From contig JAIRXG010000002.1 in assembly GCA_031268335.1 (NCBI GenBank), positions 1-64,000 of the forward strand: a stretch of 64,000 nt of DNA. Reading direction: 5' to 3'. This stretch comes from Campylobacteraceae bacterium (lineage in GTDB: Bacteria; Campylobacterota; Campylobacteria; Campylobacterales; Campylobacteraceae). Under the pieces are notes generated by a model, which saw nothing but the letters and a program-made list of their open reading frames with translations, did not search any database and was not told the DNA's origin. Below, one piece after another: positions 2,530 through 20,462 of this stretch. The position numbers were made by a program, and so were the translations under genes. Numbering within the stretch: the first letter of the stretch is position 1; the number at the start of each line of letters is the position of its first letter.

Positions 2530-4937
2530 CTATTCCTTGTTTTTAATAAACCAATTTCTGTGTTCCACAATATAGTCTGTGATTTCATCAACAGTGACTA
2601 TGCGGTTTTTATCAGGATTCCAATATCTGCTCAAAACAACATAAGCAAAATAAAAAATCTCTTCAATGCTTCTTTTTCTAAGACGCCTATCCAAAACTAT
2701 TTTATCTTCGGTAACACCCCATCCGGCATAAAACGGCACTCCATAACAATGAACTTTTTTGCCAGCCATCAACGCTTCAAATCCCATGCCGGAAGAACAT
2801 ACAAAAACATCGTCTACCAAATCAAAAAGAGCATATGGATTGATATCATAGTTATACAAGAAAATATTGTCGGCATATTTTAATGAAGATAGCAAATCTT
2901 TATTAAAATAACTTTGTTTGCCTCCGGTTATAGCATCAGGGTGCTGCTTCATTATAATGTCGTAATCACTATAATGAGATAATGCGTCTTGCAGCATATT
3001 AACAAACGACGAGCTGTCACCCAATCCGTATTTTACCGATGCATCGCTATATCGTTGATCTACTAAAAGAACTTTTCTTTTATTCGGGTTTCCCATACTT
3101 AATTTATAATAAGGAGCATGATTGTATTTCGAAACTCTATGTGTTACTATTTTGGATATACATTTCTTGCAATAATTAATAGTTTTTTTACTAAGCTTGA
3201 TATCGCTATTGAGCAAATTTTCTAATCGTGATGCTTTGGTTGCATCATAATATGCGGTATGACTATCAAATATAACAGACAAAGCCGGTTCGCCGGAAAG
3301 TCCGATATTAATAGATCTTATAAAGCCATCTTCAAGAATAATTGTTGGTTTATTAAGAGCTTTTGCATATGATTTTTGCACTATTTTTTTAGTTCTTGGA
3401 GTGATACCCCATTGATAAAAAATATCAACGCTTGCTATATTTTTAGTTTCCAAATCATTTTCAGCCAGTAATGTTCTGGCTTGTAATAAATTTTTCAAAT
3501 ATAGTTGCGATGTTTTTAAAACTTTTTCTGTAGTTGGAATACAAGCTACATCAACTATTTTATCATTAAAAAATGTCTCGCAACCATAATTATATTTAGT
3601 GATTTTTCTCTTACCGATTACCATATCGCAAAGATTATTTTTTATGCGCTCCCCTGCCAATCCGTCAAATACTCCTATACCAAAAGCATAAGCAAGTTTA
3701 TTAAATTCCATAGAATTTATACTCCATTGTCCAGATATAGCTCTATCTAAAAGCGTAAATAATTGCTCTTTAGTTTTTGCCACAGGAATAACCGACTCGT
3801 CCCAAATAGATGAAAATTCCAAATAACGAACCGATATAGCCTTTTTAGAAAGCAATATACTCTCAAAAAGCATTGTACTGTTTAAAGAAATAATTATGTC
3901 GGAATGATATATGGACTCTTCTGGACTTGTTAAATAACAACTTGCTTCATCAATTGTAACGAAATCAATCTCTTTGATTGCTCCTGCTGTTGCTTTATTT
4001 AATATATTTTTATCATTTGGTGGAAGACGAAAAATCATTTGACAATTATTAAGCTTGCAATACTTAATAATATCTCTGGTGCTTTGACGTTGTGCATCCA
4101 GCGCTAATTTATAATCAAGCTGACTATCGAGATATTGAGATGCAAACAATATTGTAGTTTTATTGCTTTCAAGTCCGTAAAGGCGGCAAAATTGTTCTTT
4201 GGTAATTTTTGGCTGATAATTTTTATATTGATCCAATTTCGGAGAGCCAACAGCCTCAAAACGTTCTTCAGGATAACCTCTTCCAATAAAAATTTTTTGC
4301 TGTATCTCACCCCAGCCCCAAATATTATCCGTTGTAGGAATGGATGCTTGGGCTCCTTTTATATCATAATAGTATTTGTCGGGATCAAAAAAAACGGACT
4401 CGTGAGGAATTAAAATAGTCGGTATGTCTAATTCTTTACAAACGTCAACAATAATTCTAATAGCTGCTGCCCAATCGAAAGTAAAAATAAACCCCTTTAT
4501 ATCAGCGCGTATTTGAACCAATTTACTTCTAATCATTTTTTTATAAAGAATTGGGTTTATGCGTGCAAACCTCAAAACATCTGTTCTTATATTGGCATTA
4601 TATATATTGTTGATGAAATCAAAAGGTTCTATGCGGTATTGGGCATCGTTTCTGATTTTTGATATTAAAATATCACTATGGCTATATATCCACGGTACAT
4701 ATAAAAATGTATAATTATTTTTAAAAATTTCTTTTAGGGTATTACTGATATATGGATTAAACCATGACGGGATACTTTCATCAAACTTTTTTTCAGAATT
4801 CGGGGGGGGGGGGGGGTAACTTTATTTTTTTCAGGTAATTGTGCAGAAATGACTTCAAGTATTTTTATACCATGCTTTTTATATGCATCTTTAAAAAAGA
4901 GGATAGGATGATTTAATAATTTTGTTATTTTGCTCAC
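2530..4937 (-). CDS. KpsC-like capsule polysaccharide glycosyltransferase, phase-variable, out of frame as sequenced
   Basis: The long open part (2530-4575, longer if read back to the G tract) resembles KpsC/KpsS capsule export proteins that add the beta-Kdo linker to the lipid anchor on the cytoplasmic side. Hallmarks are the block starting PTIILEDGFIRS, YYDATKASRLE, and the C-terminal LLVDQRYSDAS and KQHPDA. A start region from ATG 4937 (MSKITKLLNHPILFFKDAYK) runs into 15 consecutive C on the coding strand. After the tract it continues in the wrong frame and stops at about 4734. Adding one C (or losing two) joins it to the KpsC frame through PNSEKKFDES and gives a protein of about 802 residues. 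No good start exists between the tract and 4575; the TTG at 4575 is only an internal Leu codon. The gene is therefore OFF in this sequence, or the tract length is misread. It is the first gene of the leftward capsule operon. Confidence 0.7.
4802..4816. repeat. Homopolymeric G15 tract in the 5' part of the KpsC-like gene
   Basis: Fifteen G in a row (C15 on the coding strand) about 40 codons after the ATG at 4937. The upstream ATG frame and the downstream KpsC frame differ by two (start offset 362 bases), so tract lengths 13 or 16 restore one frame while 15 does not. Such tracts change length by slipped-strand mispairing and are also prone to sequencing error, so the true state may be mixed. 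Confidence 0.85.
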
Positions 4938-5982: not shown

Positions 5983-6219
5983 CTAATTTTTTTGTAGGTT
6001 TGTTCTGCTTTTTTGTTTTTTATTGCCAGATTGATATAATTTGTGATGCCAATACGAAAAACCTATAAGCGCAACTCCTGCCGCTACATGTACCTTTTTT
6101 GCCGTTTTATTTTTGAGCATAAATGCGCTTGCGGTTAAGATTCCTAGAGAGAGTGTCATGCCGACTTTTGCTATCTCTTTTTTCGTTTTTAAAGTGTCTT
6201 TCATTTGCGTTTTTGTCAT
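5983..6219 (-). CDS. Small two-helix membrane protein, last gene of the ferrosome-like operon
   Basis: A 78-residue protein with two predicted membrane segments, about residues 19-37 and 44-58, and basic ends (KNKTAKK, GNKKQKSR). It starts 2 bp downstream of the P-type ATPase stop, so it is co-transcribed with it. I do not recognise a family. Small hydrophobic proteins of this kind accompany the P1B ATPase in ferrosome clusters of other bacteria, where they are thought to belong to the organelle membrane. That role is inferred here only from position and size. Confidence 0.6.
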   Translation of the reverse strand: MTKTQMKDTLKTKKEIAKVGMTLSLGILTASAFMLKNKTAKKVHVAAGVALIGFSYWHHKLYQSGNKKQKSRTNLQKN

Positions 6220-6221
6220 TT

Positions 6222-8357
6222 TTACTCCATTTTGAGTTTTTTCATTGAGTTGAAAAGAAGTGAGATTGTTGTACTGTTATGCAACACGGCTGTAGTTATC
6301 GGCGTAAAAATCCCGGTACTTGCACCTAGCAAAATCGCGCTGTTTACCCCTACGGTAGCGTTAAAATTTTTGTGAATTCTATCAATGGCTCTGTTTGCTA
6401 ACGCTTTTATTTGCGCCAAAGCTTCAATATCATCTTTCATAAGGCTTATATCTGCCGTCGCCTTAGTTATATCGGCGCCTTTAAACATACTAATTCCCAC
6501 ATCAGCGCTCATAAGAGCGGGCGCGTCGTTTATGCCGTCTCCCACAAACACTACTTTTGAGCCTCTGCTTTTAAGTTCATTTATGATTTTGGCTTTTGAT
6601 TGAGGAAGCATATTTGCGTGTACTTCGTCAATTCCCAACTCTTCCCCTATAGCTTTTGCGCGCGAGTCAATGTCGCCCGTTAGCATAACTATCTTTTTTA
6701 TCCCTAAAGTTCTCAATCTTCCGATGATGCTTTTTGCATTTTCTCTTATTTTGTCAAACATCTCTATCATACCCAAAAGTTTACCGTCATATCCTACATA
6801 AAGTATTGTTTTTCCTTCTTTTAGACTTTTGTCAATTTTATTTTCGTGTTCTTTGAAGCTTATTCTCTCGTCATCTTCCAAAAAGTGTCTGCTTCCTATC
6901 GTAACGTCTTTATCGGAAACTACGGTTTTAACCCCGTGTGCCACTATGAACTCAACCTCTTCGTGATGCATGTGGATAAAACCAAGCTTTTTGGCAGCTT
7001 TTACTACCGCTTCTGCTACGGGATGAAAATAATGTTCTTCAGTACTTGCCGTTAGATTTAGAATATCCTCTTTACTCCAATTTTCATCAAACGAAGTAAC
7101 GGAAATGACCTCAAGTTCACCGTATGTTAAAGTTCCTGTTTTGTCAAAAATAAAAGTATCTGCATTCATGAGAGCCTCAAGAACTTTTGCGCCTTTTACT
7201 AAAATACCGTTTTTGCCGGCTTGCGCTATAGCTGATTTGAATGCTACGGGAGTCGCAAGCCTAAGAGCACAAGAGTAATCTGCTTGGAGTACGGAGGCTA
7301 CATTTTGCATATTTTGTGTAACAAGATATGATAATGCTGATAATCCCAATGTGACGGGAACTAACTTGTCGGCTAATTTAGAAGCTTTTAATCCTATGGC
7401 TGATTTTTCTTCAAGAGAGCTTAAAATATAATGTTTAATCCTAGCCGTTGCCGTATTGTCGCCCACTTGCTCAGCCCATATTTTTATTTGTCCCTCTTTT
7501 ACGATGACGCCAGACATTATCCTATCTCCGCGCTCTTTTTTAATGGGTTCGCTTTCCCCAGTCATAGAAGCTTGATTTATCATAGCTATGCCCGCTACTA
7601 CATGTCCGTCTATGGCTACCGTTTCGCCATCGCCCACTACAACTATATTTCCAACTTTAACAGAGTGTGAGGGTATCTGTTTCAAAACTTTTTTACCCTC
7701 AATCGTCTCCTCAACCCAAACTTTATCTACATTTGGTTTTCCAAGCTCTCTAATTAACTCATCGCTTTTTTGAGTAGTAGTTTCTTCTATGTATTCTCCA
7801 AGTTCTAAGAGCGCGTTAGTGCTGTTAGCGGCAGTATAATCCTTTCTTGCGAGCGATACTCCGACAGCCATAGCTTCTAACACTTTTGACGTTAGTCCAT
7901 TTTTTATTAAATCGTCAATTCCTTTAGCTAAAAGCGGAATAGAGCCAAAAGCAGAGATGGCAAACTTTATGTTGTCATTTGTACTCATAGGCGTCAAGGC
8001 TAAAGCTGTAAAGGAGCGTAAGAGTCCTGACATATCGGGTTCATTGGTATTTAACTTATTTTTTATGGTTTTGCTTGAATTCTCAAAAGACTTAAAATCT
8101 ATCTTTAAAAGCTCTTTTTCTAAACTTTCCACATTCCACAAACCATCTGAGTAGAGTGTAAAAGTGCGCGCTTTATTGTTTACTTTTGCTCTTTTTACGC
8201 CGTTTAAACTCTCAAGCCGTATAGTGAGCGCGTACATGTCGCACTTATTACTTATGTCAAAAGAACCATAGCGCCTTCTAAAAGGACTTTGGTGTTTCAA
8301 AAAGAAACGGTTCAAGTTATTAGCTTTCAGTTTGCGCTTCAGCTCTGGCATCCTCAA
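6222..8357 (-). CDS. P1B-type metal ATPase, FezB-like (atypical Y-S-C metal site)
   Basis: A 711-residue heavy-metal P-type ATPase. The phosphorylation motif DKTGT is at 405-409, TGES at 266-269, the HP motif (HYFHPVAEA) near 445 and GDGIND at 606-611. In the membrane helix where copper and zinc pumps have CPC, this protein reads YSCALRLATP (361-370): the proline is replaced. This fits the P1B-6 group to which the ferrosome ATPase FezB belongs. The N-terminus (about 15-60) has an arginine-rich stretch (SPFRRRYGS) before a degenerate HMA-like fold, and an R-rich N-terminal motif is also described for FezB. A histidine cluster HMHH lies at 462-465. The likely cargo is iron, by family and neighbours. 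With the start at 8357 the gene overlaps the upstream gene by 38 bp; later starts such as TTG 8315 are possible. It lies in a Fur-box-preceded operon. Confidence 0.8.
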   Translation of the reverse strand: MRMPELKRKLKANNLNRFFLKHQSPFRRRYGSFDISNKCDMYALTIRLESLNGVKRAKVNNKARTFTLYSDGLWNVESLEKELLKIDFKSFENSSKTIKNKLNTNEPDMSGLLRSFTALALTPMSTNDNIKFAISAFGSIPLLAKGIDDLIKNGLTSKVLEAMAVGVSLARKDYTAANSTNALLELGEYIEETTTQKSDELIRELGKPNVDKVWVEETIEGKKVLKQIPSHSVKVGNIVVVGDGETVAIDGHVVAGIAMINQASMTGESEPIKKERGDRIMSGVIVKEGQIKIWAEQVGDNTATARIKHYILSSLEEKSAIGLKASKLADKLVPVTLGLSALSYLVTQNMQNVASVLQADYSCALRLATPVAFKSAIAQAGKNGILVKGAKVLEALMNADTFIFDKTGTLTYGELEVISVTSFDENWSKEDILNLTASTEEHYFHPVAEAVVKAAKKLGFIHMHHEEVEFIVAHGVKTVVSDKDVTIGSRHFLEDDERISFKEHENKIDKSLKEGKTILYVGYDGKLLGMIEMFDKIRENAKSIIGRLRTLGIKKIVMLTGDIDSRAKAIGEELGIDEVHANMLPQSKAKIINELKSRGSKVVFVGDGINDAPALMSADVGISMFKGADITKATADISLMKDDIEALAQIKALANRAIDRIHKNFNATVGVNSAILLGASTGIFTPITTAVLHNSTTISLLFNSMKKLKME

Positions 8358-8586
8358 AACGCTCTTTCAGTTCCTCAAAACCTGCTTGTAAAAAATTTGT
8401 TCCCTTAGCTACTGTTTTTAAGAGTACTTTGCTTGCTTTTTCGTTAGTTAAAACATAAGTTACAGCAGCGCCTATCAATGCTCCAACTACAAAATCTCCG
8501 CCTGTAAAGCCAAAATTTGTATTCAAAAGACCGTTATTTTGTCGGTTTTTGATATATGGATTTTGTTTTTTATTTTTTTTACTCAT
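8320..8586 (-). CDS. Small glycine-rich one-helix membrane protein (YtxH/DUF5132-like)
   Basis: An 88-residue protein. It has a basic, Asn/Gln-rich N-terminus, then one membrane segment (about 30-46, GDFVVGALIGAAVTYVL), then a charged helical tail (FEELKERFEDARAEAQ). This layout resembles YtxH/DUF5132-type proteins, which often accompany P1B ATPases; the assignment is by pattern only. Its end overlaps the ATPase gene, and its start overlaps the stop of the preceding gene by 4 bp, so it is translationally coupled within the ferrosome-like operon. Confidence 0.6.
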   Translation of the reverse strand: MSKKNKKQNPYIKNRQNNGLLNTNFGFTGGDFVVGALIGAAVTYVLTNEKASKVLLKTVAKGTNFLQAGFEELKERFEDARAEAQTES

Positions 8587-8882
8587 TTGTTTTCCTTTAA
8601 TAATGGTAATTTTTCAATCAAACATAAAGAACCTATGCCAAGAGCAAGCGAAACCGCGGCATTTAGATATTTGCCTTGACCTATGTAGTTTGTTGCCGCA
8701 ATTGCGCTTGCCGTTGCCGTTCCGCCTTGAATGGCGATTTTTACACCTTTTTTAAAAGTCGCTTTTTTATCGCCCTTATTTGAATAAGTTATACTTGCGG
8801 CCAATACGGCTGCCGTTAACGAACCGCTTATAAAATGTCCCGTTACGGAACGAGGAATTCCCGTATTAAATGTTGGCAACAT
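8583..8882 (-). CDS. Small two-helix membrane protein, faintly MamC-like
   Basis: A 99-residue protein with two hydrophobic segments (about 15-32 and 53-90), separated by a basic loop (SNKGDKKATFKKGVK) and rich in Gly, Ala and Ser. The pattern of a hydrophobic helix, a short charged loop and an Ala/Gly-rich pair recalls the magnetosome membrane protein MamC, but I can see no decisive motif. It overlaps both neighbours by a few bases. It is probably a structural component of the membrane system served by the operon; this is inference. Confidence 0.55.
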   Translation of the reverse strand: MLPTFNTGIPRSVTGHFISGSLTAAVLAASITYSNKGDKKATFKKGVKIAIQGGTATASAIAATNYIGQGKYLNAAVSLALGIGSLCLIEKLPLLKENK

Positions 8883-9120
8883 CTAACGCCTCTTTAGCCG
8901 CTTTTGGTTTTTTTCTTTTCGGTTTACTTGTTTTTTTAACTGCAGTTTCTTTTTTTATATTTTTTTGAAACTTTTCAGCTTTTTGCAAACCATCTTTGGC
9001 AAAATCTTTTGCTTTTTGTATGCCAACCTTTACCTCTTTGGCAATTTTAGCTTTATTGTTGAAAGCTACAACAGCCAATCCGCCTATAGCGACTCCTGCT
9101 ATAAATATTGGTAGTGCCAT
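8866..9120 (-). CDS. Small membrane protein with long Lys/Ala-rich tail
   Basis: An 84-residue protein: an N-terminal membrane helix (about 3-20, LPIFIAGVAIGGLAVVAF) followed by an amphipathic, lysine-rich region with repeated K-A-K-D-F-A-K / K-A-E-K-F-Q-K patterns and a basic end (SKPKRKKPKAAK). It has a clear ribosome site (AAGGAG, 6 nt before the ATG). It could tether the cytoplasmic face of a membrane to an anionic partner such as polyphosphate or nucleic acid; that idea is speculative. It lies between a 26-residue peptide gene and the two-helix protein gene. Confidence 0.6.
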   Translation of the reverse strand: MALPIFIAGVAIGGLAVVAFNNKAKIAKEVKVGIQKAKDFAKDGLQKAEKFQKNIKKETAVKKTSKPKRKKPKAAKEALDVANI

Positions 9121-9130
9121 AATATTCTCC

Positions 9131-9211
9131 TTATATATGTTTAAATTTCAATTGGTAGATAATAACGATAATACCCAAAAACGCGCCTATCAAAAAAGCA
9201 ATCCCGTTCAT
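9131..9211 (-). CDS. 26-residue single-helix membrane peptide
   Basis: A very short gene encoding MNGIAFLIGAFLGIIVII plus the tail YQLKFKHI. Its ATG (9211-9209) overlaps the TGA of the ferritin-like gene as ATGA. It has a strong ribosome site (GAGGAG, 5 nt before the ATG) formed by the end of that gene, and the stop is followed at once by the ribosome site of the next gene. The product is a single hydrophobic helix with a basic end. Coupling on both sides suggests it is really translated. Function unknown. Confidence 0.55.
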   Translation of the reverse strand: MNGIAFLIGAFLGIIVIIYQLKFKHI

Positions 9212-9897
9212 GTTTTCTCCTCGGTATCTTCTTTGCCCATCTCTTTTGTAAATACGGTTCCAAGCGCGCCCAAAACAGCGCCTGAGAGCATAGACAGATT
9301 CAACGAACCAAGAATAGAATTTATCTTTTGCGAATCTATATTTCCGTTTGAAATGTTATTTGCCAATGTGCCAAATTCATTAAATTTTTCCAATAACTGA
9401 TTTTGCGAAAAAGTGTTGTCGTTGGATTGATGATTTTTCATATCTTTATATACAAAAGTCCTGAAATTTGGTAATAATTCATTGCAAGAGAGCGCTTGCA
9501 AGCGATAAAAAGTATCTTCTATATCCTCTTTGTCACTGCAAAAATCTAAAAGCTCATCATACACCAATATCATTTTAAGTTCGTCGGCTATGCAAATTTC
9601 GCATATTTGAGTAATGTTGTCGGAGAGTTTTGCATAAGACTTGCAATTATTTTTTACAAATGGCACATTGTATTTTTCAAATAAAATGCCCAAAGCGCCA
9701 ATAGCGTCTAATTGTACATGTAAAGCTTCCGAAAAAATCGGAAAATTATCAAAAAGTGTATTTGCAGCTTTAAACTTTTCATAATTTTGATAATGCGCGA
9801 ACAAGGCTATACGCAGAGCTTGTTCATATTGTAAATACGGGCTTTTTGCGCTGATTTTTCTTTTGAAGAGCAGTATTTCGTCTTTATTTTTACTCAA
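9208..9897 (-). CDS. Ferritin-like four-helix protein
   Basis: A 229-residue, mostly helical protein. Carboxylate and histidine residues are spaced as in ferritin-like bundles: SEALHVQLDAIGALG in the first half, ADELKMILVYDELLDF in the middle, then EDTFYRLQALSCNELLPNFR, which resembles the rubrerythrin/DUF2202 end. The last 40 residues contain a small hydrophobic stretch (SMLSGAVLGALGTVF), so it may attach to a membrane. It starts inside the stop of the HMA2-like gene (ATGA). A ferritin-like protein inside a P1B-6 ATPase operon fits iron storage or mineralisation. Metal ligands cannot be assigned with certainty. Confidence 0.55.
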   Translation of the reverse strand: MSKNKDEILLFKRKISAKSPYLQYEQALRIALFAHYQNYEKFKAANTLFDNFPIFSEALHVQLDAIGALGILFEKYNVPFVKNNCKSYAKLSDNITQICEICIADELKMILVYDELLDFCSDKEDIEDTFYRLQALSCNELLPNFRTFVYKDMKNHQSNDNTFSQNQLLEKFNEFGTLANNISNGNIDSQKINSILGSLNLSMLSGAVLGALGTVFTKEMGKEDTEEKT

Positions 9898-10226
9898 ACT
9901 GTCTCCTTTATGACTTTATTGATAAAAGCTGTTACTTGTTCGCTATTTTCGCCCTCCGCAAAATCTTCCAACATGTAAAAGGGAAAAATATTTTCATCGT
10001 ATAAAATCGTGATAGTTCCCATGAGAGCGATTAATTTAAACTCTTTAATACCTTCAATTTTTCCTGCTATCTCTTTTGCTTTATTGATTGAAATATTTAG
10101 TTTTTCAAACTCTTTTTGCATCTCTTTTATTTTCGGACTTATACTAATTCTTATGCGCTCTTTAGTATGATGCAAGATGGAGAGGTATTTTGAGACTTGT
10201 AAAACTTGCTCTTTGGTAATATTCAT
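9894..10226 (-). CDS. HMA2-domain protein, first gene of the ferrosome-like operon
   Basis: A 110-residue protein with the HMA2-type signature HHTKERIRISISPKI near residues 18-32, then the typical helix–strand pattern ending with GIKEFKLIALMGTITILYD. These domains resemble heavy-metal-associated domains but lack the CxxC pair, and they recur in ferrosome clusters and beside P1B-6 ATPases. The ATG is preceded by AAGGAT. About 60 bp upstream lies a Fur-box-like site, and the gene heads a run of eight genes that overlap or nearly touch. Confidence 0.65.
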   Translation of the reverse strand: MNITKEQVLQVSKYLSILHHTKERIRISISPKIKEMQKEFEKLNISINKAKEIAGKIEGIKEFKLIALMGTITILYDENIFPFYMLEDFAEGENSEQVTAFINKVIKETV

Positions 10227-10283
10227 TTTTTGTATCCTTTGCGAAATTGTAACTTCTATTTTCGCAAAAGGATTAAAAAGTTA

Positions 10284-10301
10284 GTTTATAATCGTTATCA
10301 A
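10284..10301 (-). promoter_or_regulatory. Fur-box-like operator before the ferrosome-like operon
   Basis: On the minus strand the site reads TTGATAACGATTATAAAC. The core GATAACGATTAT differs from the Fur consensus half GATAATGATAAT at only two positions. It lies about 60 bp before the ATG of the HMA2-like gene and just behind the Fur-family regulator gene. Iron repression of the operon is inferred. Confidence 0.5.
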
Positions 10302-10319
10302 GAAGATGAATTTTTGATA

Positions 10320-10784
10320 TTAAGATTTTTGACACTCTTCGCAAAAACCAAATAAAAGCAAGCTGTGAGATAACGGCATGAAGCCTTTTTTGGCGCAAAA
10401 AGAGTCTTGAAGGGATTCAAGTTTGCTATCGTAAAACTCAACTATCTTGTAGCATTTTTTGCATATTAAATGGTCATGATGATATGATGCGTTTAATTCG
10501 TAAAATTTTTGTTTTTCAATGTCGTTTGGCAAAGAGAGAGAATTTATGATTTGTAGTTTTTCAAAAAGATTTACAATATTGTAGATAGTAGTTTGCGATA
10601 GTTTGCAGGAAAATACGTCATAAATTTTTTCCGCAATATCTTTAATGCTCAAATGTTTATCGCAGTGATACAGTACATGTAGCACAAAAGTTCTATTTTG
10701 AGAGTGGTTTAGCCCTAAAGATTTGAGTGTAAAATCTACTTTTTCCGAAAAAGAACCAAATGTGATAGTGATTTTGTTTATCAT
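10320..10784 (-). CDS. Fur-family metalloregulator
   Basis: A 154-residue Fur/PerR-type repressor. It has a winged-helix N-terminal half (KSLGLNHSQNRTFVLHVLY, then SIKDIAEKIYDVFSCKLSQTTIYN as recognition helix), the metal-binding run YHHDHLICKKCYKIVEF and a second cysteine pair CEEC at the end; both CxxC pairs for structural zinc are present. It sits 93 bp upstream of the ferrosome-like operon in the same direction, with a Fur-box-like site in between. It may be a dedicated regulator (Fur, PerR or Zur type cannot be told apart by eye) rather than the cell's main Fur. A GATACT-containing stretch lies just upstream of its own start. Confidence 0.75.
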   Translation of the reverse strand: MINKITITFGSFSEKVDFTLKSLGLNHSQNRTFVLHVLYHCDKHLSIKDIAEKIYDVFSCKLSQTTIYNIVNLFEKLQIINSLSLPNDIEKQKFYELNASYHHDHLICKKCYKIVEFYDSKLESLQDSFCAKKGFMPLSHSLLLFGFCEECQKS

Positions 10785-10889: not shown

Positions 10890-11076
10890 GATGTTTTGGC
10901 TTTTAATCAACCAAGACAATGTTATCTTAAAGGCATTCACTATTTGTGGATAAATTTTGTGCCGCTATTTTATTTGCAATAGCCTCAACTATGGATTTTT
11001 TCGATGAATATATAGTAAGAACATGGAATCAAAAACGGTATTTGGAAGCATATTGGATCTATTGGCGGACAAGATG
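10890..11076 (+). pseudogene. Decayed internal fragment of pgsA
   Basis: This stretch aligns almost base for base with the complement of 29626-29815, the 5' third of the intact pgsA. Shared runs include GATGTTTTGGCTTTTAATCA and ATTGGCGGACAAGATG. I estimate close to 90 % identity over about 187 bp. Most differences are transitions (TCG to TTG, GACGGA to GATGAA), and small deletions break the frame. The CDP-alcohol phosphotransferase signature is degraded (DFFDGYIARAW has become DFFDEYIVRTW). Neither end of pgsA is present. The remaining bases of 10785-11204 show no gene; the promoter of the Fur-family gene should lie near 10790-10860. Confidence 0.8.
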
Positions 11077-11204
11077 TAACTATGATAAAAAAAGCTAAAA
11101 CCGACAAAGGTTTCATAATTGCGCTTTGCCAGTTTTATTTTTGTTGAAGTAACAAAAACGTTACTTAGTCATGCGTTGGCGACTATCGTTTAGCGGCTGC
11201 TTCG

Positions 11205-13052
11205 TTACGGTTCAATGATATTGAAATCATTTGGCGCAGGATGGTCGAGGAATGATAATATTTGGTTTAGCAGCGGGTATTTCGGCGCTTCAAAGTTAAG
11301 CGCAATCGCGTTTAACTCATCGCGGGAAAGTGCGTACAAATCTTGCGCGTCCTTACTTACGCCTTTTCGCGCGCTTAAAACGCTATTGGAGAGGCAAATA
11401 CTCCATATTTCATTATCGATTGAGAGATTTAAGGTCATTGTTTTATCATCCGCTTTTTGTGGGTTTAGCCAAACGGCGATATAGTCAAATAACATTTCGA
11501 TTGGCATAAATTTTATGATCTCTTCTCCTAATGTACTTAGTCCGCCGCGCTTTTTTGCGCCGTCTCTTAGTTCCAATGCGCCTGTTAGATAAAGATTGCG
11601 CCAAGTTGCGCTTTCGGCTTGATAGCCAAGTTGTTCATATACATGTGCCAAAAGTTCTCTTGCCTCTTTATTTTGCGGATAACCGAAAACCGCATGATTT
11701 AAAACTTGCGCCGCAAAACGATATTCGCCGTTTTCATAAAGCTTTTTTGCTTTTTGTATGACTTCGTCGATTCCGCCCATTAGTTCGACAAATTTTATTC
11801 CGCTCTCCTTGGGCGGCAATGGATTTAAATTTGCGGGATTGCAATCAAACCAGCCCAGATAGCGCTGATAAGTTGCCTTAACATTATGATTTAAATGTCC
11901 GTAGTAGCCGCGAGTATGCCAGTGTTTAGCAAGAGAGTCGGGCAATTTTAAAGACTCGGCGATTTCGCTTGGAGTATAACCTTTGTTTATTAGTCTTACG
12001 GTTTGATCGTTTGTAAATTTATATAAATCGCGCTGCTTAGCAAGCAATTTTGTTATGTTATTTACGCTCCACTCGGGAAAATGGTGCGTCAAAATAAGCG
12101 CTTCGCTTTTGTCGCCAAAAAGTGTAAGCATTTCATCAATGTGCTTTGACCATGCTAATGCCGACCTTGCTTGCGCGCCGCGAAACGGCAATATATTATG
12201 TTGGTGATAAGTTATAATCTCCGCTGCGCACAATGCGCTAAAATCAGGCAAGTAAAAGCACATTTCCGAAGGCGCTTCGGCGTCAGGCGTTAATAAAAAG
12301 ACAAACTTTACACCGTCTATTACAAGCTCTTCAATTTTATTTTTGATAATTATATTTGGTTTTAGCGGCACGGAAATGCCGGTACTTGCTCCTTTGCCAA
12401 GTCCGCTGCCAATAAAACCTTTTGCGTTTGTTTCAAGCGCATTACCAAATTGATAAACCGATCGGCGATTCATAGCTGCGCCGACAAAGATATTTTCACT
12501 TACGAGCTCTTGTGTAAATTGATCGGGAACAATAAGCGGTATAGCGCCGTTGTCGATATTTTGTTGATTTACCAATGCGCCGATACCGCCAAAATGATCC
12601 CAATGACTGTGTGTAACGACAATCGCCGTGATTTTTATATTACCTAAACTTTTTTTGGCAAATTCAATTGCCGCTTTTGCCGTTTCGATGCAACCTAACG
12701 GATCGATTGCAATATAACCGTTTTGTGATTTGATCAACGTGAGATTTGCCAAATCAAAACCGCGAATTTGATAAATGCCGCGCGTAACCTCAAATAATCC
12801 CGCGATTGTATTTAGCTTTTCATGCCGCCATAAACTCGGATTGACCGTATCAGGCGTATCTTTTTGCAGAAGATTTTCCAATTCGTCTAGTCGCCAGACG
12901 ATTTTCTTTTTGTCATTTTTTATAACTAAGTCGTTGGCTTTGGCAATCAATCCTTTTTGAGCGCGCTCAAAATCCTCCGTTTGCTCAAACGGTAGATAAT
13001 CCAAATAGTTTTTATGCTTTATCTTTGTGTATTTAGTTGCTTCGCTTGCCAT
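11205..13052 (-). CDS. Linear primary-alkylsulfatase (metallo-beta-lactamase fold)
   Basis: A protein of about 615 residues of the SdsA1/BDS1 family, which hydrolyses alkyl sulfate esters such as dodecyl sulfate to alcohol and sulfate. The zinc motif THSHWDHFGG is near residue 150. Further family blocks are APSEMCFYLPD, NILPFRGAQARS and LTHHFPEW (His near 325). The C-terminal third has a helical dimerisation part and an SCP2-like sulfur-substrate domain. No signal peptide is visible, so the enzyme should be cytosolic, unlike secreted SdsA1. ATG 13052 is preferred because GGAG lies 5 nt before it; GTG 13058 overlaps that site. It is a single gene with no partner, and codons are somewhat richer in GCG/CGC than in the neighbours, which may indicate transfer. 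Confidence 0.85.
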   Translation of the reverse strand: MASEATKYTKIKHKNYLDYLPFEQTEDFERAQKGLIAKANDLVIKNDKKKIVWRLDELENLLQKDTPDTVNPSLWRHEKLNTIAGLFEVTRGIYQIRGFDLANLTLIKSQNGYIAIDPLGCIETAKAAIEFAKKSLGNIKITAIVVTHSHWDHFGGIGALVNQQNIDNGAIPLIVPDQFTQELVSENIFVGAAMNRRSVYQFGNALETNAKGFIGSGLGKGASTGISVPLKPNIIIKNKIEELVIDGVKFVFLLTPDAEAPSEMCFYLPDFSALCAAEIITYHQHNILPFRGAQARSALAWSKHIDEMLTLFGDKSEALILTHHFPEWSVNNITKLLAKQRDLYKFTNDQTVRLINKGYTPSEIAESLKLPDSLAKHWHTRGYYGHLNHNVKATYQRYLGWFDCNPANLNPLPPKESGIKFVELMGGIDEVIQKAKKLYENGEYRFAAQVLNHAVFGYPQNKEARELLAHVYEQLGYQAESATWRNLYLTGALELRDGAKKRGGLSTLGEEIIKFMPIEMLFDYIAVWLNPQKADDKTMTLNLSIDNEIWSICLSNSVLSARKGVSKDAQDLYALSRDELNAIALNFEAPKYPLLNQILSFLDHPAPNDFNIIEP

Positions 13053-13258
13053 TTTCACTCCATTTTTTACATGAATTATACAATAAACATTATTAAATGA
13101 ATCTGTTTACTATGAATTTGTTATTATTTAATATGACAAGTGTACTATTTTGCATCTATTTTTATTTATTTAGTGTTTTGTAAAGCCTTGTCTATGGATA
13201 TTTTATTTGATAGTGTGATATTATTATCCGTCATGTAAGTATGTTTGAGGATATGAGA

Positions 13259-16711: not shown

Positions 16712-18673
16712 TTGAGACTGTTTAGAGGTTACAAAGGGAAATATTTTTCTCTTGCAGCGATTTTAGCTTGCAGCGCAGGCGTTAGTCTTGAAGCAAACAA
16801 CGTTAGTTTGGAGACAAAAAAGTATGAAGTTGCTCAAAATTTTGCAAGCGAAAAAGAGGCTGAAACAAAAGAGGAGGCACTTGGGACTATACATGTCATA
16901 GCTGATATTGAGAAGAAAAAGTCTTATGAGCAGAGCAGTTTACGTACATTAAAACAAAAATCCCACACGACAGATACTACAGAAATCATAACCGGCGAAG
17001 AGATAGAGATAAAAGGCTTTCAAAATATCGTTGAGGCTTTAAACTCTGTTGCAGGCATATCGTCTACTGCTAACGGCGGTTACGGACAGAGCAACTCTTT
17101 GTATTTAAGAGGATTTGACTCAAAACATACGCTTGTTTTGATAGATGGCATTAGAGTTAATGACGCGAGCGGTTTAAGCGGTGCGCAAATAGAGCTTATA
17201 GATTTGTACGACATAGATAGGATAGAGATAGTAAAAGGCGCTCAGAGCGGAGTTTGGGGAAGCGATGCCAGCGGAGGAGTTGTTAATATCATAACCAAAA
17301 CAAAAAAGCAAGGTTTTAGCGGCGATATATTGACGGAGTTTGGTTCAAATGATTGGCAAAAATTCGCAGGCTCTTTTGGCTACGCAAATAAAGTATTTGA
17401 CATATCGTTATCACTTCTTTCCCTGCAAACAGACGGCATTTCAGCGGCAGCTCCAAAAAAAAGCGACGTTGGGTACGGTGATAAGGATTTGAACTGGGAA
17501 AAAGACGGATTTGAAAATACCATCGTGCATGTAAAGGGCGGCGTAAATCTTTCTGATGACGATAGGCTGGAATTTTTTATAAAAAAGGGCAAGTCTGAAA
17601 ACCATTTTGACGGTGGTGCCGGGGTAGATGCTAAAGATTATGACAATTTGTACGGATATGGAGAGTATTTTAATACCATTCGCACTTCGCTCTATTCGGT
17701 TGGCTACATAGGCGCGCATGAAAAACACAAGATAGATGCGAAGGTAAATTATGGCGATTTTAAGCGTTCTTTTTATGGCGGATATGTCGGCAGAACGTAT
17801 GAGGCTTATGCAAGCGACGAATTAAGTTACATCGGCGACGGTTCGCTTTTATTTGGTTTGGGTTATTTGAAAGATGAGGTAAAGCTCTCTGCCGGCGCAA
17901 AATTTCCAAACGATAGTCAAGACGATAAGTATATATTTGCTACAAATTCAAATAAATTAGGCGATTTTATAACCTCACAATCTCTAAGGTTTGATGCAAG
18001 AGATACTTTTGAAGATAAACTAACATTCAAAGTCGGTGCAAAATATAATTTTTACAAAGATTTATTTATATACGCTTCGTACAAAACAGGTTTTTTAGCT
18101 CCAAATCTTTATCAACAAAATTACGATGCGTCAAACTCTCTTGAAGCTGAGAGTTCAAGCGGATATGAGTTATCGGTCGGAACTCAAAATTTTTTATTGA
18201 CATACTTTGACCAACAGATAAAAAATGCTATTAATTACGGCGGTTGGTATCCAAATGATTTTTATTACAATATTGAGGGCAAAAGTAGATTTAAAGGCAT
18301 TGAGGTTAGTGCAAATTATCAATTATCCGATATATTGGGCGAACTCTCTTATACTTATCTTGATGCTAAAGACGCTAACGGCAACAAAATAGCCAGACGA
18401 CCGCGAGATAAAGTTGAGGCTTCTTTATCGTGGTTTTTAAGCGATACTCTTTTTATGAACATAAAAGGTTCTTATGTCGGTTCAAGACACGATACAAACG
18501 AAGTGCAAACAGGAAAGTATTTTTTAGCCGACTATACTGTAAATTATGATGTCGGTAAACGCATAAACTTATATTTTAAGATACATAATGTATTTGACAA
18601 GTACTATCAAGAGGTTGACGGATACGGTACTCTCGGCAGAAGTTTTTATGTAGGAACAAGAGGGAGTTTTTGA
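16712..18673 (+). CDS. TonB-dependent outer-membrane receptor, probably cobalamin (BtuB-like)
   Basis: A 653-residue receptor. The start is TTG with AAGGAG 6 nt upstream. The N-terminal signal peptide ends near SLEA. A plug domain follows (about 90-200; LYLRGFDSKHTLVLIDG, GGVVNIITK), then a 22-strand barrel ending in an aromatic terminus (FYVGTRGSF). The overall length and plug resemble BtuB. Its position directly behind B12-dependent metH suggests that vitamin B12 or another corrinoid is the cargo; this is inference, since the barrel loops do not identify the substrate. The stop overlaps the start of the next membrane protein gene. Confidence 0.8.
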   Translation: MRLFRGYKGKYFSLAAILACSAGVSLEANNVSLETKKYEVAQNFASEKEAETKEEALGTIHVIADIEKKKSYEQSSLRTLKQKSHTTDTTEIITGEEIEIKGFQNIVEALNSVAGISSTANGGYGQSNSLYLRGFDSKHTLVLIDGIRVNDASGLSGAQIELIDLYDIDRIEIVKGAQSGVWGSDASGGVVNIITKTKKQGFSGDILTEFGSNDWQKFAGSFGYANKVFDISLSLLSLQTDGISAAAPKKSDVGYGDKDLNWEKDGFENTIVHVKGGVNLSDDDRLEFFIKKGKSENHFDGGAGVDAKDYDNLYGYGEYFNTIRTSLYSVGYIGAHEKHKIDAKVNYGDFKRSFYGGYVGRTYEAYASDELSYIGDGSLLFGLGYLKDEVKLSAGAKFPNDSQDDKYIFATNSNKLGDFITSQSLRFDARDTFEDKLTFKVGAKYNFYKDLFIYASYKTGFLAPNLYQQNYDASNSLEAESSSGYELSVGTQNFLLTYFDQQIKNAINYGGWYPNDFYYNIEGKSRFKGIEVSANYQLSDILGELSYTYLDAKDANGNKIARRPRDKVEASLSWFLSDTLFMNIKGSYVGSRHDTNEVQTGKYFLADYTVNYDVGKRINLYFKIHNVFDKYYQEVDGYGTLGRSFYVGTRGSF

Positions 18674-19260
18674 TGAGATTGTATGTCAAAAGATATCTTC
18701 TATATAAATTTTTAAACTCACTGTTTTTCGGACTTTCGGTGGGGACTATTTTTATTATCTATGAACCGTTGAAGCCTTTGGTTTATTCTGTTGGGGGGAT
18801 ATTGTTAGCTTTTGGAATGCTTGCCTTAGCCTCGCAATACAGAAAACTTATGAACAAGAATGCTCTTTTTACGGTACTTTTGATAGTTGAGGTTATCACG
18901 CTCATCATAGTTTTGATATTTTTGTTTTTTCAAAAATCATTGTTATCGGCTCTTTTTATCTATATCTGTTATCAGGTGACATTTCTTTTCGGCAGTTATG
19001 TGATGAGGGTGGAGACGTTAGTGTTGAGGTATACTAAATTGTATTCTTTGGCTGATATGTTGAAACAAACAGGATATCTCATAGGACTTGGCGGCGCATT
19101 TGCGTGTTATGAGGCATTTGAGTACTGTGAAATTTCAGACAAAATAGAACAAGTGTATTATCTGCACTATATATTAGTTGTGGTACAATTTATAGTTATT
19201 TTTTGCTTGGTAATGTCGTTTTCTTGCAATAAGCTTTTACGTGCAAATTATATGAAATAA
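18673..19260 (+). CDS. Integral membrane protein of unknown function (about six helices)
   Basis: A 195-residue protein that is almost entirely hydrophobic, with about six membrane segments. Its ATG overlaps the TGA of the TonB receptor (ATGA), and GGGAG lies 6 nt before it. I do not recognise the family. The size and spacing resemble half of a major-facilitator transporter or a permease component. Coupling to a putative cobalamin receptor suggests a role in the same uptake route, for example an inner-membrane step, but nothing in the sequence proves it. It is followed 23 bp later by a Bcr/CflA transporter gene. Confidence 0.6.
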   Translation: MRLYVKRYLLYKFLNSLFFGLSVGTIFIIYEPLKPLVYSVGGILLAFGMLALASQYRKLMNKNALFTVLLIVEVITLIIVLIFLFFQKSLLSALFIYICYQVTFLFGSYVMRVETLVLRYTKLYSLADMLKQTGYLIGLGGAFACYEAFEYCEISDKIEQVYYLHYILVVVQFIVIFCLVMSFSCNKLLRANYMK

Positions 19261-19283
19261 CGAAAAAGAAGATAATACATAGT

Positions 19284-20462
19284 ATGAATGTTATATCCGA
19301 AAGGCGATTGGTTTTTATATTGGCGGCACTTTCTGCCATTACTCCGCTTGCCATTGATATGTATCTGCCTGCCATCAGCAATATGAGCAAAGCCATAGGC
19401 GTTGACGAATCTATGGTATCGGTTAGTATTAGTATATTTTTCTTAGGGCTTGCGGCAGGGCAACTTTTCGGAGGTCCCATATCGGATGCTTATGGCAGAA
19501 AGCCTATGGTTATAGCAGGACTTGCTCTTTTTTGCATAAGCAGTTTTGTTATAGTGTTTGTAGATAATGTTTATGTGTTGTGGTTTTTTAGATTTATTCA
19601 AGCTTTTGGCGGCGGAGTTGCTACCGTAAATGTATCAGCGACAGTGCGAGATATGTTTAGCGGTAAAGATAGCGCCAGAATATTTTCAATGATAGGTTCC
19701 ATCACTATTTTAGCACCGCTTATAGCACCGCCGCTTGGTCTTGGCGTTATTTTGATTTTCAAAAGATGGGAGACTATATTTTTGATTTTAGGGATTTATT
19801 CGTTACTGGCTCTTTATTTTTACAAACGAAACGTCATTATTTCACCGAAGACTGAGAAAGTTAAGATTACACCTATAAGAAATTATATTGACATTTTGAC
19901 AAGTTCAAAGCCGATGATACTGATTATAGCTCTTGTCGTATCAAGTTCGGGTATGTATGCCGTATTGACATTTTCATCGGTGATGTACGAAAAGTATTTG
20001 GGGCTTTCAAAACCGATGTTTATACTCTGTTTCTCAATGAACATAGCGAGTCTTATGATTGCTTCACGTATAAATATGCGCCTTGTAAGACGCATATCGC
20101 CGTTGAGGCTTTTAAAATTCGGTATGAAAGCGCAAGTTCTCATAAGTATCATTTTGTTTTCTTTTTATAGCAGTACAAATCCTTACATTATAGCGCCCCT
20201 TATAGCGTTATTTATCGGAACATTAGGATTTGTATTCGGCAATGCTCTTTCAATTGTCTTAGACTATTTTCCAAAGATAAGCGGTTCGGCTAACGCCGTT
20301 ATAGGCGTTTTACAGTATAGTGTCGGCGCTTTTGCAGGATTTTTAGTCGGATTGCTCAATGACGGCTCTTTGTTTCCGCTGATGTGTGTCATAATGTGCT
20401 CGTCAATCATAGGAGCAGCTATACTACTTATAAGCGTAGCGCGTAGCAAAGTTTTAGCATAA
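19284..20462 (+). CDS. Bcr/CflA-family MFS efflux transporter
   Basis: A 392-residue major-facilitator protein with 12 predicted helices. The N-terminal block LAIDMYLPAISNMSK is the hallmark of the Bcr/CflA drug-resistance family, followed by the MFS motif A region GGPISDAYGRKPM between helices 2 and 3 and RFIQAFGGGV in helix 4. Members export bicyclomycin, chloramphenicol, sulfonamides or small peptides by proton antiport; the substrate here is unknown. It sits 23 bp after the small membrane protein and 46 bp before corA, so it may share transcription with both. Confidence 0.85.
   Translation: MNVISERRLVFILAALSAITPLAIDMYLPAISNMSKAIGVDESMVSVSISIFFLGLAAGQLFGGPISDAYGRKPMVIAGLALFCISSFVIVFVDNVYVLWFFRFIQAFGGGVATVNVSATVRDMFSGKDSARIFSMIGSITILAPLIAPPLGLGVILIFKRWETIFLILGIYSLLALYFYKRNVIISPKTEKVKITPIRNYIDILTSSKPMILIIALVVSSSGMYAVLTFSSVMYEKYLGLSKPMFILCFSMNIASLMIASRINMRLVRRISPLRLLKFGMKAQVLISIILFSFYSSTNPYIIAPLIALFIGTLGFVFGNALSIVLDYFPKISGSANAVIGVLQYSVGAFAGFLVGLLNDGSLFPLMCVIMCSSIIGAAILLISVARSKVLA

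Follow-up and report, generated by a model that had tools for sequence, protein, structure and literature searches.

A candidate fez (ferrosome) operon with a predicted ferritin-fold protein in a Campylobacteraceae genome

The stretch of DNA analyzed here, referred to in the following as the window, comprises 64,000 nucleotides of contig JAIRXG010000002.1 (assembly GCA_031268335.1) from a Campylobacteraceae bacterium. On its minus strand, at 5983–10784, it carries eight tightly packed genes together with a Fur-family gene and a Fur-box-like site, and all parts of the leftward run described in the original prediction were found. Following the regulator, the genes encode an HMA2-like small protein (hma), a predicted ferritin-fold protein (Fer), a 26-residue peptide, three small proteins (hyd5, hyd4 and ytxH), a P1B ATPase of the FezB type (fezB) and a cytochrome-like protein (cytC). 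As a whole, the cluster is very likely a Campylobacterota fez operon, which would provide an iron store in place of FtnA-type ferritin. The core of this reading, already suggested by the original prediction, is supported by the sequence of the ATPase, which falls apart from the copper and zinc exporters compared, and by the small proteins, which match the fez cluster of Rhodopseudomonas part by part. To our knowledge, ferrosomes, which are membrane-bound stores of iron, have been demonstrated in few bacteria to date. The literature that we searched, which did not extend to two primary ferrosome papers, described neither Campylobacterota ferrosomes nor a ferritin-like fez protein, and the term DUF2202 was absent from it.

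The ATPase open reading frame has 711 codons. Since the same-genus homologues L002 and L003 (697 aa) begin at the position of a TTG at 8315, four bases past the preceding stop, this TTG is the probable start, giving a protein of 697 aa. At the site where CopA, ZntA, CadA, CzcP and Nia carry C-P-C, S-P-C or T-P-C, the window ATPase reads D-Y-S-C (LQADYSCALRLATPVA), in agreement with the Y-S-C noted earlier, and it lacks the CPC, SPC or TPC found in the metal-binding helix of P1B-1, P1B-2, P1B-4 and P1B-5 pumps. None of 131 FezB-like sequences had C/S/T-P-C followed by A or P. What had been called an Arg-rich N-terminus is better described as an H-x4-R-x-R motif near the N-terminus, present in 123 of the 131 sequences.

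A tree was built from 39 ATPase sequences, 28 FezB-like rows and 11 CPx pumps. A branch (96/91) placed the FezB-like rows, among them the window and Rhodopseudomonas ATPases, apart from the copper, zinc/cadmium, P1B-4 and P1B-5 pumps; this was the comparison proposed with the original prediction, and its outcome agrees with a FezB assignment. An inner branch (100/99) united the window ATPase with rows from Campylobacterota, Rhodopseudomonas, Azospirillum, Paramagnetospirillum and betaproteobacteria, leaving those from Vibrio, Cereibacter, Deinococcus and Fusobacterium outside. The ATPases of the named Arcobacter plasmids nested among the relatives from the window's phylum. Between the window and the same-genus locus L120, fezB had a dN/dS of 0.07. 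In some relatives, a second P1B ATPase, with C-P-C, is encoded directly upstream of the fez operon (L128, 5962–8082, minus strand; L132, 451–2553, plus strand); this protein branches beside the FezB clade (99/94).

According to a published study (PMC12016538), six fez genes, RPA2333–2338, give rise to ferrosomes in R. palustris CGA009. As reference we used Rhodopseudomonas sp. BR0M22 (L055), in which six genes encode an HMA2 plus cytochrome protein (FezC), an HMA protein, three small proteins and the ATPase. A second Rhodopseudomonas genome (L158) has the same six-gene set, and the ATPase, 92–100% identical, occurs in one copy in 4 of 16 Rhodopseudomonas genomes. It is a fair assumption, although not proven, that this cluster is of the CGA009 type. 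When the partner proteins were compared with the proteobacterial fez genes by hhalign, as had also been proposed, hma, hyd5, hyd4 and ytxH matched the second, third, fourth and fifth genes, respectively, with probabilities of 96–99.6% (Table 1). Only the Fur protein and the ATPase exceeded their Pfam cut-offs, and the HMA_2, YtxH and DUF4405 matches of the small proteins all lay below. Off-diagonal probabilities were low except for hyd5/ytxH (80 and 87%), fer/hyd5 (62%) and fer/ytxH (25%), due to a common GxxxG helix, and hma/fezC (98%), due to the HMA2 domain that both possess. Such helices were present in hyd5 and ytxH at all 23 Campylobacterota loci compared and in 15 of 17 Fer tails, where shuffling expects 4.7, 7.3 and 5.6, respectively; GxxxG was not in excess over shuffling in hyd4, cytC or hma. 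The GxxxG helices may pack side by side in the membrane.

The last gene, described originally as one more small membrane protein, could be identified as the cytochrome part of FezC, standing alone. FezC is reported to bind haem b (PMC10979944). The 78-aa cytC product gave a probability of 95.1% against whole FezC, and its alignment to the C-terminal part of FezC reached 89.4% (P = 2.3e-7). At all 20 loci that have cytC it follows fezB, and both His positions are conserved in all 20 aligned sequences. By its sequence, then, the cluster includes a FezC-type cytochrome domain, in the form of the C-terminal part only. Overall, all six gene types of the Rhodopseudomonas cluster, including a FezB-type ATPase, have homologues in the window, and their order is nearly the same. 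FezC, however, is represented by its cytochrome part only and stands last instead of first, and Fer, the 26-residue peptide and the Fur gene are additions. A similar cluster is found on Azospirillum plasmids, with ATPases 44–50% identical to that of the window.

The 23 Campylobacterota loci consisted of 20 chosen from FezB hits for their flanks, the window and two Arcobacter plasmids. All 23 keep hma, hyd5, hyd4, ytxH and fezB in this order, and the arrangement is therefore not due to chance; cytC was present in 20 and Fer in 17. At six loci (L121–L124, L138 and L139), hyd4 and ytxH share a single open frame and are apparently fused. The Arcobacter plasmid operons (L032 and L033; CP129951 and CP134847) have the same gene order as the window, with Fer (annotated DUF2202), YtxH, ATPase and cytC genes; unlike in the window, neither plasmid showed an adjacent Fur gene or the 26-residue peptide, and the Fer of L032 has all five of the metal ligands considered below. 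Across the phylum, FezB (E ≤ 1e-120) occurred in 136 of 397 genomes, in one copy each.

Of the functional hints that the operon may store iron, its distribution relative to FtnA is the strongest. A PF00210 search found two ferritin classes, strong and weak, which in a tree of 18 PF00210 proteins with E. coli FtnA, Dps and Bfr were FtnA-type and Dps-type, respectively, except for a match in genome G304 (Dps-like) and one in G029 (FtnA-like). Owing to these two, calling FtnA by PF00210 E-value was replaced by a direct FtnA profile; the counts were nearly unchanged. By this profile FtnA was present in 151 of the 397 genomes: 125 had FezB alone, 140 FtnA alone, 11 both and 121 neither (Fisher p = 4e-21, uncorrected for kinship). 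In the window's family (f1), FtnA was found in 0 of 74 FezB genomes and in 46 of 47 listed FezB-negative genomes; for family f13 the numbers were 0 of 19 and 76 of 81. The FezB-negative genomes in both comparisons are those matched by PF00210. Among the remaining families, FtnA was also present in 11 of 43 FezB genomes, nine of them in f9. In seven genera (g2, g5, g6, g20, g24, g46 and g59), FezB-only and FtnA-only species occur side by side, and the exchange has therefore probably taken place more than once; beyond this within-genus exchange, the exclusion is uncorrected for kinship. The window's own genome (85% complete) contained only a Dps among such proteins. From these distributions, ferrosome genes appear to replace ferritin.

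No Fer was seen in the Rhodopseudomonas clusters L055 and L158. In Campylobacterota, a Fer match (E ≤ 1.2e-11) was found in 128 of the 136 FezB genomes, in each case on the same strand and 643–2022 bases upstream of fezB. The profile was built from fez-linked copies and is biased toward them, and the cut-off was set after the gap had been seen; weaker matches (E 4e-9 to 7e-4) occurred in 16 genomes, two of which also hold a strong one. Of the eight FezB genomes lacking Fer, three belong to the window's genus. We also examined 86 fez loci from outside the phylum, mostly proteobacterial, consisting of the best 80 of 459 confirmed hits, ranked by likeness to Azospirillum, and six hand-picked plasmid loci. 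In fourteen of them, a Fer gene (E < 1e-3) lay between hma and hyd4, on the strand of fezB and no more than 4 kb away, and no Fer match at this threshold was found elsewhere in the fetched stretches. The near-constant presence of Fer in the phylum led us to reject a local acquisition.

The window copy of Fer gave no Pfam model above cut-off and no DUF2202 match; all that appeared was an unrelated zinc-ribbon family below threshold. Homologues with intact ligands match DUF2202 or Rubrerythrin, and four of eight Fer proteins scanned (L126, L128, L093 and L105), all ligand-intact, exceeded the DUF2202 cut-off. AlphaFold models showed a four-helix bundle both for the window Fer (pLDDT 78.9) and for the intact homologue L105 (pLDDT 79.6). 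Foldseek listed 50 matches for the window Fer, nearly all of them ferritin-like or unnamed proteins; three rows (7vg4) were neither. None of the 50 reached E 0.001, whereas two matches of L105 did. By VIA, the window Fer aligned to a bacterioferritin with Z 16.4 (rmsd 2.2, 137 residues); the L105 Fer reached Z 16.6 (rmsd 2.7, 142 residues). Since helical bundles can reach Z 13–14 without kinship, the assignment rests also on homology to the DUF2202-scoring copies. We conclude that Fer has a predicted four-helix ferritin fold, so that the earlier description as ferritin-like stands at the level of modeled fold, but not at that of a Pfam match for this copy.

The four-helix bundle is shared with the DUF2202/rubrerythrin-like superfamily (MJ0754; 3q4n, 3q4r), and the L105 Fer superimposed on 3q4r with Z 15.8 and rmsd 1.9 over 131 residues at 25% identity. 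Fer differs from these proteins in its hydrophobic GxxxG tail, its linkage to fez genes and its repeated ligand loss. The Fer tails of L105 and other betaproteobacteria contain a conserved E..H ... H-G ... Q-H set, which persists in copies that have lost the ferritin-site ligands and was not seen in the aligned Campylobacterota copies. In Paramagnetospirillum caucaseum (L049), an open reading frame downstream of the FezB gene (11030–11530, plus strand) looks rubrerythrin-like by eye.

We surveyed the ligands (E, E..H, E and H, positions inferred from conservation rather than from a solved structure) in 53 Fer sequences from 60 loci picked for spread, not at random. All five were present in 21 sequences, four in 4, and three or fewer in 28, the last from several lineages; the window and L120 copies keep one of five. 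Mapped onto a quick FezB tree, the label "lost" requires 13 changes, and starred branches force 11 of these; long branches leave parts of the tree unsure. Ligand loss thus probably happened repeatedly, and regain is possible. The window copy is nevertheless under purifying selection (dN/dS 0.13, window against L120), and a pseudogene was rejected on this value, obtained with a single relative. With one of five ligands kept, yet the predicted fold and the low dN/dS retained, the window Fer is likelier to be kept for its shape than for an iron site, that is, to have a structural role rather than one in mineral handling. The original prediction of a ferritin-like addition for mineral handling fails for this copy on both counts: it lacks four of the five inferred ligands, and Fer regularly accompanies the fez genes throughout the phylum instead of being added locally.

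The Fur-box-like site TGATAACGATTATAA matches 12 of 14 positions of a 7-1-7 consensus, and a fraction of about 0.001 of 2000 Markov shuffles scored as well. The sequence is identical in L120, one of 9 out of 21 other loci with P < 0.05; at the remainder the score lay above this value, and the box was rejected as a phylum-wide signal. A Fur-type gene was present within the fetched flank at 9 of the 23 loci. The window's genome (G000) has four Fur-family genes. Six of seven fez-adjacent Fur proteins formed one clade next to the housekeeping type, with support (87/80) under the starred level, and the seventh (G044) was of another type. These sequence features hint that Fur may regulate the operon in response to iron. 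Six same-genus loci (the window, L120 and L121–L124) either have all four of Fer, the 26-residue peptide, an adjacent Fur gene and the Fur box or have none of them. The reading frame of the 26-residue helix is preceded by a ribosome-site-like AGGAG stretch in both the window and L120, and its dN/dS between the two is 0.13 over 26 codons; it was present at only these 2 of the 23 loci.

Several points weigh against a fez operon storing iron in place of ferritin. The Fur-box score exceeded P 0.05 at 12 of the 21 other loci, including same-genus L121–L124, where Fer and the adjacent Fur gene are missing as well. No cytC was found at three of the 23 loci (L127, L138 and L139), and that of the window lacks the HMA2 part of FezC. 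The hyd5 match spans only the GxxxG helix, 21 columns, and the homology references came from Rhodopseudomonas genomes whose identity with CGA009 is not established, rather than from the strains in which ferrosomes were demonstrated. FezB and FtnA coexist in 11 genomes and are both missing from 121. Finally, no organelle can be demonstrated from sequence. An ordinary copper or zinc/cadmium exporter operon would agree with the generic matches of the ATPase to TIGR01525 (heavy-metal ATPase) and to the cadmium family TIGR01512 (344.5 against a cut-off of 313.5), but was rejected on the ATPase motif, C/S/T-P-C followed by A or P being absent from all 131 FezB-like sequences, and on the tree, and the partner proteins match a fez cluster; we regard it as highly improbable. 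A plasma-membrane ATPase exporting Fe(II) for detoxification, with the small proteins as accessory subunits and no organelle, deserves more weight. Iron-exporting P-type ATPases are generally known to exist. A review table assigns Ni(II)/Fe(II) to P1B-5 and Fe(II) to P1B-6 (PMC7558416). Even so, iron efflux seems rather unlikely: the parts match the kind of cluster that reportedly makes ferrosomes in R. palustris, the ATPase has neither the SPC nor the TPC motif of the compared P1B-4 and P1B-5 pumps, and the lack of FtnA from FezB genomes in two families fits storage better than export. Moreover, a usual Fur box would imply induction under iron shortage, when export would make little sense.

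Fer itself might oxidize iron or nucleate mineral inside the organelle or at its surface, as would suit its predicted fold, the 21 sequences with all five ligands and the four ligand-intact proteins above the DUF2202 cut-off. We consider this doubtful, with something like one chance in a few, because the window copy has kept its predicted fold and low dN/dS with a single ligand, more than half of the sequences surveyed (28 of 53, in several lineages) have three or fewer, and the two Rhodopseudomonas clusters have no Fer. In the preferred reading of a fez operon, iron shortage would lift Fur-type repression at the box near 10290 and the operon would be made. The HMA2-like, glycine-zipper and hydrophobic small proteins would shape or coat a membrane compartment, into which FezB would pump Fe(II), and the FezC-type cytochrome would cycle electrons so that iron is laid down and released. 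Fer, with its hydrophobic tail, would be a standing part of the set in the phylum; its window copy can scarcely act as a ferroxidase and would more probably provide docking or a scaffold. The resulting store would stand in for FtnA-type ferritin.

Table 1. Features of the putative fez operon and the neighboring Fur-family gene in the window.
Feature	Position	Strand	Evidence
Fur-family regulator	10320–10784	−	Pfam FUR 3.9e-25; paralogue distinct from the genome's housekeeping-type Fur
Fur-box-like site TGATAACGATTATAA	10286–10300	−	Between regulator and operon
hma, HMA2-like small protein	9894–10226	−	Pfam HMA_2 1.7e-5, below cut-off; hhalign 99.6%
Fer, predicted ferritin-fold protein, degenerate metal site, hydrophobic C-terminus, TTG start	9208–9897	−	AlphaFold, VIA, ligand pattern
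26-residue single-helix peptide ORF	9131–9211	−	AGGAG-type site before ATG
hyd5, one GxxxG helix and Lys-rich tail	8866–9120	−	hhalign 96.0% over 21 columns
hyd4, small hydrophobic protein	8583–8882	−	hhalign 98.4%
ytxH, YtxH-like, one GxxxG helix	8320–8586	−	Pfam YtxH 0.012, below cut-off; hhalign 99.2%
FezB-type P1B ATPase	6222–8357	−	LQADYSCALRLATPVA where CPx pumps carry C-P-C
cytC, 78-aa FezC-type cytochrome part, two conserved His	5983–6219	−	Pfam DUF4405 0.045, below cut-off; hhalign

Near the operon, the window contains an alkylsulfatase-like gene (11205–13058, minus strand) and, at 16712–20462 on the plus strand, genes for a TonB-dependent receptor, an unknown protein and an MFS transporter, in this order. 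On the other side, a capsule-type gene (2530–4575, Pfam Capsule_synth) has a run of 15 C (4802–4816, minus strand) some 230 bases upstream of its listed start. The frame running into this tract meets a stop soon after, and it looks like a phase-variable tract.

Fer may be a near-constant subunit of Campylobacterota ferrosomes, undescribed in the literature searched: a ferritin turned scaffold, its iron site repeatedly stripped and a GxxxG helix serving as tether, with Fer-bearing ferrosomes having replaced ferritin as iron store in large parts of the phylum, and with repeated exchange inside genera. All of this together is tentative, falling just short of an even chance. The extra Fer subunit and the exclusion with ferritin set the Campylobacterota fez operon apart from the fez clusters already known. 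If true, a conserved ferritin-shaped subunit would offer an entry point to the assembly of the ferrosome compartment, and the either-or pattern of FezB and FtnA makes the proposal that ferrosomes replace ferritin directly testable.

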